From Oscillatoria sp. (GTDB lineage: Bacteria > Cyanobacteriota > Cyanobacteriia > Cyanobacteriales > Laspinemataceae): DNA of 64,000 bases. Below are positions 1,071 to 27,925 of the stretch, piece after piece. A program made the position numbers and the translations under genes. Location of the stretch: assembly GCA_011390515.1 (NCBI GenBank), contig JAABSJ010000001.1, positions 1 through 64,000 on the forward strand, given 5' to 3'. A model generated the notes under the pieces. The model worked only from the letters and a program-made list of their open reading frames with translations, was not told the DNA's origin and did not search any database. Numbering within the stretch: position 1 is the stretch's first letter; every line of letters begins with the position of its first letter.

Positions 1071-1210
1071 ATCTCAAGTTACCAACTATTGATTGAGTAG
1101 TCACCGAACGAGCCACCCGAGTTCATGATCCACGAACCGGGTGCCAGTTTTCGTAATATAGACTAACAGAGAACGGGACTGGCCGGATTTGAACCGGCGA
1201 CCTAGCGCTT

Positions 1211-2127
1211 CAGATTTGTGTGAGTTTCCTCACTCTCTGGACTATTCCTTCACCTTAGACTTGAGGTCCGTAGGTGGTGGCCGTTACGTTTGAGGAGGTT
1301 TGTACTTTATAGCGTAGACTGTCCGGGACGTAAGGAGTAATGAAATCGAGAAATCGTTTTCCCTCTTGAGTTCCCATTCTCAAACGATAAGAATCCGCCG
1401 TTTTACTCAGGCCCCACTTAAATCCCCAAATTTCCGAAAAATAATCAATAATGATTTCATTTTCCCATTGGGAGAGGTTGGTGTTTAGATACAGTTCTAG
1501 GGCGTGAATTTTCCCGTTCCTTTTTTTAAAGGACTTGGACCCTCGGTCTAAAAACCATAAGGCGATTCCAGCGGGGGTTAAGAGGTTCAGAAACTTAGGG
1601 GTGACGGTTTTAATCCCGCCGCAATAGAGTTTCTTGACCAAGACCCGAGTTAAGGGAATCAACTTTGGTTCTAAACAGAGGAGTTGTTCTCCCCGGTGGG
1701 TGGTTCGAGGTCGGATGCTAACCGGCTGTTGGGTGATTTGTTCGAGAAGTTGTTTTTTAAACAAAACGTAATTCTCTTGGGTAGCTCGATGGGAAATATA
1801 GAAATTGTTTTGATTTCTTTTTCCCTGACCCAATAACATCCCCACTAAAACGCCTCGTTGTTCTACTTTGGATGCGACATGGAAGTCCATCTCTAATGGC
1901 TCTCTCAAACCAGTCTCTGCACCTTCCTTTGACAGCTAGAATCAGACGGGGACCGGATCAAACGTCAATTCTTTCCGATGCCTGCTGTTGTTTAGCCGTT
2001 CAAAGGCTTGGCTCAAGATTACCTTATCTGTCCATTGGCTTTGATTGGAAAGCTGCATACAGACTTAGGCTTTCTTGAATTTGACCACATTCACTCCTGG
2101 AGTTTCCTCCAAGGTGCCCGATGTTTC
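1211..2127 (-). other. Group I intron (IC3-like) in the tRNA-Arg(CCU) anticodon loop, with internal ORF
   Basis: 5' exon ends in U (CCU|GAAACAUC...); intron ends in G (AAAUCUG|AAGCGCU); core elements AATCTTGAGCCAAGCC (2005..2020), GGTGCAGAGACT (1912..1923), AAGGAATAGTCC (1239..1250). Confidence 0.87.
1255..1908 (-). CDS. Intron-encoded LAGLIDADG homing-endonuclease-like protein (TTG start as called; internal ATG possible)
   Basis: Two LAGLIDADG-type motifs, RGVLVGMLLGQGKR and LTPAGIALWFLDRGSK; ORF lies between the group I R and S core elements. Confidence 0.82.
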   Translation of the reverse strand: MREPLEMDFHVASKVEQRGVLVGMLLGQGKRNQNNFYISHRATQENYVLFKKQLLEQITQQPVSIRPRTTHRGEQLLCLEPKLIPLTRVLVKKLYCGGIKTVTPKFLNLLTPAGIALWFLDRGSKSFKKRNGKIHALELYLNTNLSQWENEIIIDYFSEIWGFKWGLSKTADSYRLRMGTQEGKRFLDFITPYVPDSLRYKVQTSSNVTATTYGPQV

Positions 2128-2524
2128 AGGAGGCGCTTGCTCTATCCAACTGAGCCACAGCCCCAAGGCTAAATTGATTGTAGCAGAACCGGGGACAACT
2201 CGTCTGCTTTTTTACAGGTTTAGGGTGTTCTACAGGGAGGGTGCGATCGCCTATAAACCCTTGATTTTTGAGGGATTCCGGGTTTGAACCCAGAGGCGGG
2301 CGGGGGCGTTCGCCTCATCCCGTTGAGGGTCTAGGGAAGGGTGACAAATCATGGGGTTGCGATCGGCATCACTTCACGAGTTTGGTTTCGTCACCTGAAA
2401 ACAGGAAAACGCCTCACTATCCAGGGGAGGAAACATCACAGAAATCAGGAAATGCTCGTCACTGAGAAGCTTTGAGCAAAAGGCGATACTAAATCAATCA
2501 AAGAAACGAAGAGGGAACCTGACT

Positions 2525-3157: not shown

Positions 3158-4096
3158 ATGGCATACATTATCTCAACCATCAATATGAAGGGGGGCGTCG
3201 GAAAAACCACCCTAACCGTTAACCTAGCCGCCTGTTTAGCCAAAGACTATCAGAAACGAGTGTTAGTCGTGGACCTGGATACTCAAATTAGCGCCACCCT
3301 CAGTTTAGTTTCTCCTCATGACTTTTCTAAACTGCGGAAAGAAAAACGCACCTTAAAGCATTTAGTCAATGATTTTATTCAACCCATTGACCAGAAATCA
3401 TTACCCATCCAAGATATTATTAAACCCTATATTGGCAACGTTAAAGGATTAGATTTACTCCCCGGAGATCTAGAAATCTATGATGATTTTATGGTCTCTG
3501 AAGTTCTCCATCGCAAAGCCTTGCGCCTCGGCAAAGATAACTTTGAAGAAGTTTGGACTAAATTAGAGCAAATTTTAGTCCGAGGAATTTTGGATCCGGT
3601 GATGAAAGATTATGATTTCATCGTCCTAGACTGCGCCCCCGGTTACAACTTATTGACCCGCAGCGCCTTAGTTGCCAGTGACTATTATCTTCTCCCGGCT
3701 AAACCCGAACCCCTCTCTCTGATTGGAATACAGTTATTAGAAAGACGCATTAACCAACTCAGGGAAATTTATAAGAACGAAAATCCCTTGGACTTAGACA
3801 TGGTTGGAATTGTGTTTAGTATGTCGGGGAATTTACTCAGCGGTAGATATTACCGGCAAGTCATGCGCCGAGTCCATGATGATTTTGGAGAGACCAAAAT
3901 TTTTAAAACTAGAATTCCAATGGATGTCAATGTCTCGAAAGCGGTAGATAGTTTCCTCCCCGTTTTTCTCACTCATCCCACCTCCATTGGTGCAAAAGCC
4001 TTTTCCCAATTAACCGATGAGTTTATGCAAAAGCTACAAATCATCGTCGAGATGAAAGAGCAGAAAAACAAGTTGAACCTAGTTAATTTAGACTAA
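3158..4096 (+). CDS. ParA/MinD-family ATPase
   Basis: Deviant Walker A MKGGVGKTTLTVNLAA; VLVVDLDTQ; DFIVLDCAPGYN. Confidence 0.9.
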   Translation: MAYIISTINMKGGVGKTTLTVNLAACLAKDYQKRVLVVDLDTQISATLSLVSPHDFSKLRKEKRTLKHLVNDFIQPIDQKSLPIQDIIKPYIGNVKGLDLLPGDLEIYDDFMVSEVLHRKALRLGKDNFEEVWTKLEQILVRGILDPVMKDYDFIVLDCAPGYNLLTRSALVASDYYLLPAKPEPLSLIGIQLLERRINQLREIYKNENPLDLDMVGIVFSMSGNLLSGRYYRQVMRRVHDDFGETKIFKTRIPMDVNVSKAVDSFLPVFLTHPTSIGAKAFSQLTDEFMQKLQIIVEMKEQKNKLNLVNLD

Positions 4097-4171: not shown

Positions 4172-4617
4172 ATTATAGCAATCCTTGCGTGCCGTTGTGG
4201 AAGACGTCGGCGGCCCCCAACATCAGGCGGCCCAAAGCATCCGAGGGGAGAATACATCAGTCACAAATCATTTAGGACTGCTATAGCAATCCTTGCGTGC
4301 CGTTGTGGAAGACGTCGGCGGCCCCTTTCTCGTCGGCGGCCCAGAACATCCGAGGGGACATCGAGTGAGGTATAAATCATTTAGGACTGCTATAGCAATC
4401 CTAAATCAGTTGTGGAAGACGTCGGCGGCCCCTTTCTCGTCGGCGGCCCAAAGCATCCGAGGGGAGAAGACAGATGTTATAAATCATTTAGGACTGCTAT
4501 ATATAGCCTTTCTCATGTCCATAAGGTACAGCGATGGCGGCCCCTTTCTCGTCGGCGGCCCAGAACATCCGAGGGGATGCAAAAAAGTACATAATCAGTC
4601 CACCGAAGCGCTATATA
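4172..4617. repeat. Head-to-tail array of four MITE-like units (about 110 bp each) with TATAGC...GCTATA ends
   Basis: Units begin 'tatagcaatcc' and end 'atttaggactgctatag'; interiors share gtcggcggcccc...ggcggcccaaagcatccgagggga; last unit begins tatagcctttctcatgtcc and ends gcgctata next to the IS630. Confidence 0.85.
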
Positions 4618-5710
4618 AGCAGTCATGCAAAATTAATTGCATATTTTATAATTTTCAGCTAAAATGAATAATCTAGGCATAAAAAGGCACAAAAAGGAGA
4701 GTCATCTATGAAATTTATAAATTTATGTCCCGAAACTGAAAAAATGCTAGAAAGAATTTATCAGTATAGCCAACATCATAAAGTGAGGCAAAGAGCTCAT
4801 TGTATTCTTTTAAGTTATAGAGGCTTTAAAATGGAAAAATTATTGGAAGTTTTTGAAATCAGCCGTCGAACCCTGCAATACTGGTTTCAACACTGGGAAC
4901 AAAGTAAATTACCCGGGTTGTATGACCAACCGGGAAGAGGAAGAAAAGCCAAGTTAAACACCCCTCAAAAACAGCAAGTTAAGGAGTGGATAAAAGCCGA
5001 GCCTAAAAACTTAAAAAAGGTCATCAATCAAGTTCAAGAAGAATGGGGAATTGAGGTCAGTAAAGATACGATAAAAAGAGTAGCAAAATACTTGGGAATG
5101 ACATGGAGAAGAATGAAGAGAGGACTCGCTGGAAGTCCCTTTGACTGGGAATATGAGTTCAAACTGGAAAAACTAAAAGAACTAAAAAATTTAGATAAAA
5201 TTGGAGAGATTGACTTGCGATTTTTAGATGAATCAGGAATGTCTTTAACTCCCTCAATCCCTTATGGATGGCAAGACAAAAAAGAGAGAATTGTTGTCCC
5301 CAGTGCTTCTAGTAAGCGATTAAATATATTAGGAGTCATGAATCGGCATAATGAATTAGAATATGAATTTTATTCAGGAAACTTAAACAGCGAAAAATTA
5401 ATTATTTTTTTAGATAAATTTAGTGAAAAAATAACTAAAAAAACTGTCGTGGTCATGGACCAAGCCTCAATTCACACCAGTAACGCAGTCGTGGGTAAGT
5501 TAGAAGAATGGAAGACTAAAAACCTGGAGATATTTTGGTTACCTCCTTATTCCCCTGAACTGAATTTGATTGAAATTTTATGGAAGTTTATCAAACATGA
5601 ATGGATTAAAATTGAAGCCTATAAAGACTGGCAACATTTAGTTGATTATGTTACTAATGTCCTGGAAAATCTGGGAAAAGAATATGCAATTAATTTTGCA
5701 TGACTGCTTA
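4616..5710 (+). mobile_element. Complete IS630-family element
   Basis: Perfect 30-bp inverted repeats TAAGCAGTCATGCAAAATTAATTGCATATT at 4616..4645 and (revcomp) 5681..5710, flanking an intact transposase; TA at both ends. Confidence 0.93.
4708..5703 (+). CDS. IS630 family transposase
   Basis: HTH N-terminus plus DDE motifs (FLDESGMSLTP, VVVMDQASIHTS, LPPYSPELNLIEILWKFIK). Confidence 0.92.
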   Translation: MKFINLCPETEKMLERIYQYSQHHKVRQRAHCILLSYRGFKMEKLLEVFEISRRTLQYWFQHWEQSKLPGLYDQPGRGRKAKLNTPQKQQVKEWIKAEPKNLKKVINQVQEEWGIEVSKDTIKRVAKYLGMTWRRMKRGLAGSPFDWEYEFKLEKLKELKNLDKIGEIDLRFLDESGMSLTPSIPYGWQDKKERIVVPSASSKRLNILGVMNRHNELEYEFYSGNLNSEKLIIFLDKFSEKITKKTVVVMDQASIHTSNAVVGKLEEWKTKNLEIFWLPPYSPELNLIEILWKFIKHEWIKIEAYKDWQHLVDYVTNVLENLGKEYAINFA

Positions 5711-27806: not shown

Positions 27807-27925
27807 GAATCCGGTTGTGATAGGTCTATAAAAACCCACACCCTCAAGGGTCTGGCTCCACAGACGAAGCCCGCCTGCGCGGGCTAAAGAGAAAATCGAC
27901 TTTTTACAACCGGATTTGGTATTAT
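27807..27925. repeat. MITE-like element with AATCCGGTTGT inverted ends
   Basis: atacggaatccggttgtgatagg ... tttttacaaccggatttggtat. Confidence 0.75.

Follow-up and report, generated by a model that had tools for sequence, protein, structure and literature searches.

The locus described here raises the question of why a reading frame for a homing endonuclease-like protein is kept inside a bacterial tRNA intron when both of its catalytic aspartates have been replaced. The window, that is, the whole 64,000-nucleotide stretch of Oscillatoria sp. DNA that was analysed, carries on its minus strand a tRNA-Arg(CCU) gene interrupted between U36 and A37. The 5' exon (2128-2164) ends in CUCCU and the 3' exon (1174-1210) starts with AAGCGCU. 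Both are present exactly as given in a preliminary description of this DNA, and they join into a 74-nt tRNA with the anticodon loop CUCCUAA. The 917-nt insert (1211-2127) begins directly after U36, and its last nucleotide, at 1211, is a G. Conservation of both the exons and the intron core across 40 other genomes of the order excludes a chance arrangement. ARAGORN found no tRNA in the window, as had been predicted for standard tRNA finders; in practice, tRNA genes split in this way escape such a program. No uninterrupted tRNA-Arg(CCU) was found among the 62 tRNA loci of the genome, and since the assembly is 87.5% complete a copy could be missing from it. The same genome contains, beside a normal dispersed set of tRNA genes, a dense array of approximately 30 tRNA genes (G000 C190:19289-26766; L031, L032), some of which have odd anticodons (e.g. 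gaaa, ata).

The insert was identified as a group I intron with Infernal, by which RF00028 was matched as a whole model over 1218-2140 (42.2 bits, E 4e-9). This score falls under the RF00028 gathering score of 50. Same-site relatives that lack the ORF reach 67-71 bits with this model, and the ORF insert is probably the cause of the lower score in the window. The internal guide UCGGG (2121-2117) pairs in P1 with CCU of the exon and GA of the intron and forms the standard U.G pair at the 5' splice site. The P3-P4-P6-P7-P8 core matches the covariance model. P3 is formed by GUGGUC (2083-2088) and GGCCAC (1277-1282), and it covaries among relatives, with all seven strand combinations pairing in a script count. 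The 5' strand of P7, or R element, is GACUG (1911-1915), where GGUGCAGAGACUGGUU is identical in 41 of 41 ORF-bearing introns, and its 3' strand, or S element, is UAGUC (1240-1244). P8 is formed by CACCUA (1271-1276) and UAAGGUG (1251-1257), the latter including the UAA stop codon of the ORF. The intron presumably splices; the self-splicing proposed in the preliminary description is putative.

The intron had previously been assigned to subgroup IC3, and this assignment was upheld in part. Homology of the core was supported by model R1, which was built from these introns and also matched the tRNA-Leu(UAA) intron in G290. Canonical IC3 introns, however, have no helix between P7 and P3, whereas a P7.1-like helix and the ORF occupy that junction in the window, and we therefore refer to the intron as an IC3-type variant. 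It resembles the other cyanobacterial tRNA introns (Leu, fMet) in its anticodon-loop insertion and related core, but differs from them in its host tRNA and in lacking the contiguous P7-P3 junction found where those introns were read. The second group I intron of this genome (L001, G000 C149:1372-1582) lies in an apparent tRNA-fMet, is ORF-less and has a direct P7-P3 junction.

The arms of the P7.1-like helix are GUUUGAG-A-GAG (1900-1910) and CUC-CUCAAAC (1288-1297), which form a 7-bp stem that closes the ORF and, past a bulge, approximately three further pairs in many introns. Pairing in P7.1, like that in P3, was counted by script. In the outer 7 bp, 273 of 287 cells were paired, compared to 107-143 at slid registers; for the 16 distinct arm pairs, 106 of 112 positions were paired against a shuffled mean of 86, a count reached in 0 of 2000 shuffles. 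The helix was named by analogy with P7.1/P7.2 of the Twort and L2593 rDNA introns, which likewise have extra pairing between P7 and P3 (PMC1995217). The type in the window differs from these in its IC3-type core and in its single helix, the loop of which holds either the whole ORF or a short remnant. In 41 of 41 introns, the ORF follows the 5' strand of P7 and precedes the 3' strand of P3. Placement of the ORF in the P8 loop was ruled out, because the P3 3' strand follows the ORF and covaries with the P3 5' strand.

The final codons of the ORF overlap P7.1, P3 and P8, and where the ORF overlaps RNA helices its synonymous sites are nearly frozen (dS 0.019 versus 0.20). Such overlap would be expected if the main target of selection were the RNA or DNA, with the reading frame a by-product. 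Between codons 9 and 200, however, synonymous change is free (dS 0.20) and the amino acids are conserved, many introns lack the ORF stretch entirely, and the dN/dS pattern reported below contradicts the idea, to which we assign next to no probability.

The ORF (1255-1890, minus strand) encodes 211 amino acids from its ATG, or 217 from a TTG at 1908, and its assignment to the LAGLIDADG proteins in the preliminary description was borne out by a match to PF03161 (LAGLIDADG_2; E 1.5e-36, 126 bits against a cut-off of 25 bits). The protein has a pI of approximately 10, and its predicted structure (pLDDT 84.6, pTM 0.83) has an I-SceI-like fold, with I-WcaI as the top PDB match (TM-score ~0.7). I-SceI and I-WcaI thus share fold and family model with the window protein, but belong to yeast mitochondrial introns rather than to a bacterial tRNA intron. 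Active endonucleases of this kind carry two catalytic aspartates that end the LAGLIDADG helices. In the window these positions are taken by Q28 (codon 1825-1827) and R122 (codon 1543-1545), which align with D44 and D145 of I-SceI, established as its catalytic residues. With both aspartates replaced, the window protein probably no longer acts as a homing endonuclease.

Relatives were identified by alignment search in 46 of 391 genomes of the order, from 26 genera, and 41 loci, the window included, lie at the identical tRNA-Arg(CCU) position. Only two of the 41 same-site introns with a full-length ORF (G651 and G556) retain both aspartates. Among 26 dereplicated relatives, the first was retained in six and the second in three. 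Site 28 is occupied by D, K, V, C, W, H, R, Q, T, E, A, N or G, and with these 13 residues it is the second most variable of 206 columns, flanked nevertheless by an invariant G27 and a small residue (G, A or S) at position 29. Site 122 is occupied by nine residues (K, R, C, D, N, Q, S, H or A) between the invariant D121 and G123. Apart from the catalytic positions, the LAGLIDADG helices are nearly invariant. In the alignments that were inspected, distant cyanobacterial and phage relatives mostly have Asp where these sites align. On a tree built without the two sites, letters changed at least 18 times at site 28 and at least 11 times at site 122, and the Asp pair was lost eight times if Asp is taken as ancestral and its loss as irreversible, a count that is approximate because several deep branches are weakly supported.

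The retained aspartates bear on whether these proteins are still nucleases or nickases, acting through other residues or a single remaining Asp and still driving homing. One-Asp variants could nick, and against a uniform loss of nuclease activity stand G651 and G556, so that some members of the family may still be nucleases. For the family as a whole we consider this very improbable: the window clade and most other members lack both aspartates, the replacements are as unlike one another as W, G, V, K and R, and those positions show no other conserved acidic residue.

Related introns in other settings point to where the ORF may have come from. In the f61 genomes (L098, L099, L100; e.g. L099 1440-2420, minus strand), the P7/P3 junction of a group I intron in an apparent tRNA-Tyr(GUA) likewise holds a related LAGLIDADG ORF, with a possible closing helix of its own, and the encoded proteins have K or E at the first site and D at the second. 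An intron on a virus contig (L103, 1820-2760) carries a LAGLIDADG ORF with both aspartates directly after the P7 5' strand. Because these introns carry related ORFs in a similar layout, an active mobile ancestor with an ORF at the P7/P3 junction is plausible. Close kin were not found in phage and plasmid collections; phages gave distant LAGLIDADG proteins (~25-31% identity) and plasmids none.

The reading frame is under purifying selection. Mean dN/dS was 0.18 in the window clade, in which all eight sequences have Q and R at the two sites, and 0.04-0.36 in other sister pairs. No stop codon was seen in six lineages where 83.4 were expected neutrally, a contrast that is somewhat overstated by the choice of these lineages from unbroken ORFs. 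Unbroken ORFs account for 38 of the 41, and the remaining three (G417, G410 and G425) are frameshifted. The break in G417 (L095) lies near codon 128, just past the second LAGLIDADG motif, at a run of ten A that could allow the frame to be recovered by slippage; the breaks in G410 and G425 fall at almost the same codon.

An ordinary endonuclease life cycle, in which activity is gone, the ORF is decaying without present function and its deletion is pending, is the standard assumption for LAGLIDADG genes (PMC13405050). It would account for the three frameshifts and for the common occurrence of ORF deletions that leave a hairpin. It would not account for low dN/dS and absent stop codons in lineages that have lost the catalytic residues, nor for LAGLIDADG helices that are near-invariant except at the catalytic positions. 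The dN/dS values and stop counts rule out neutral decay of the ORF, and we regard the life-cycle explanation as strongly disfavoured and improbable. Purifying selection on the frame shows that the protein has a function, but not which one. The selection persists after Asp loss and is in this sense independent of nuclease activity, as is expected of a maturase.

Introns without the ORF limit how general such a function can be. Among 390 genomes of the order, 201 gave strong matches to a covariance model of the intron's 5' half. Of the 78 ORF-less tRNA-Arg(CCU) introns that were read, P7 and P3 are directly joined in 20, and the other 58 have a P7.1 hairpin. Among the direct-junction introns, 16 form a well-supported lineage of their own and four are nested inside the P7.1 lineage, where they look like precise losses. 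Introns with the ORF and introns with the hairpin are interspersed with each other, so loss, or gain, of the ORF must have occurred several times. A similar core without an ORF is common; the protein is therefore not needed in general, and it is ruled out as a requirement of every intron of this type.

The start of the ORF suggests how its translation may be controlled. The 5' arm of P7.1 holds Shine-Dalgarno-like purines, which are likely to be the ribosome-binding site. The expected start codon is AUG in 31 introns and AUA in ten, and all ten AUA introns have AAGGAG in the P7.1 arm (L004, L068, L069, L070-L072, L074, L078, L079, L095). In three of the ten (G459, G488, G417) there is no upstream in-frame ATG, GTG, TTG or CTG. 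The AUA introns are candidates for natural AUA initiation. Ribosomes can be kept off folding introns by a weak start or by sequestering the ribosome-binding site, and in I-TevI and other phage intron ORFs this site is part of the intron structure, which sets translation against folding (PMC3073962). In the window the competing helix would instead be the one at the P7/P3 junction, and its regulatory role is putative.

The same purines would also fit retention of the protein as a regulator that binds DNA or RNA, such as a repressor of its own transcription or translation, instead of a splicing factor. Even without nuclease residues, a basic LAGLIDADG fold could retain binding to its DNA target, and I-TevI provides a precedent for autorepression (PMC1995217). 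Long-term repression of an inactive nuclease, however, offers no obvious gain, and members of the close family were seen with no other kind of intron core; we consider a purely regulatory role unlikely, if still credible.

The explanation that we favour, and consider probable, is that the protein descends from an I-SceI-type homing endonuclease, that it has repeatedly become nuclease-dead yet remained under selection, and that it most likely serves as maturase of its own intron. Under this proposal, the ORF that lies inside the IC3-type core, at the P7/P3 junction, is that of a former endonuclease. Its catalytic aspartates have been lost in the window clade and several times independently in related cyanobacteria, with the protein retained by purifying selection. 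The protein would bind its own intron RNA and keep P7 and P3 splicing-competent across the insert of approximately 640 nt. Formation of P7.1 would pair the likely Shine-Dalgarno sequence, and the folded intron would thereby shut off translation of its own protein. More tentatively, at a little less than an even prospect, active homing endonucleases in cyanobacterial tRNA-Arg(CCU) introns may repeatedly have given rise to nuclease-dead LAGLIDADG maturases that make up a bacterial family. The ORF at P7/P3 would then create a difficulty in folding that the encoded protein resolves, and P7.1 would switch between translation and tRNA splicing.

Most of what is known about how selfish endonucleases turn into RNA-binding proteins of use to the host comes from single cases in fungal mitochondria. 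The introns described here form a natural series at one site in one bacterial order, with both aspartates (two introns), one, none (many), a hairpin only, or nothing, and this series makes the conversion of an endonuclease to an RNA binder testable with matched pairs in cyanobacteria. Many LAGLIDADG maturases are degenerate or bifunctional endonucleases (PMC3073962), and a bacterial one is known from a Thermotoga 23S intron (PMC3984707). Yeast bI3 (PDB 2ab5), I-AniI and the Thermotoga neapolitana 23S protein are LAGLIDADG proteins that assist their own group I introns (PMC3073962, PMC3984707). The window family differs from these in its location in tRNA introns, in its repeated independent catalytic loss and in that its maturase role is putative.

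Bacterial LAGLIDADG introns have been described in 23S rRNA genes (PMC1995217), and no description of a LAGLIDADG ORF in a bacterial tRNA intron was found in the open-access literature. The fMet intron of Synechocystis 6803 has a PD-(D/E)XK ORF in P1, whereas the window intron has a LAGLIDADG ORF in its core (PMC3073962, PMC1995217). In one review, fMet and Leu are the only cyanobacterial tRNA intron families named (PMC4033280), though approximately half of the sampled genomes of the order strongly match the 5' half of the tRNA-Arg(CCU) intron.

Elsewhere in the window, an Rfam CRISPR-DR28 match at 27863-27886 was rejected as a CRISPR array; it is a single GC-rich palindrome, with no tandem repeat reported. 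Approximately 3.7 tandem copies of a 107-bp unit (4174-4577) lie between a ParA-like ORF (3158-4096) and a transposase-like ORF (4708-5703). Tandem arrays of 31-bp and 53-bp units, which have in common a palindromic GTAGTAACGACTTCAGTCGTT-like core, occupy 26-458, downstream of the tRNA gene.
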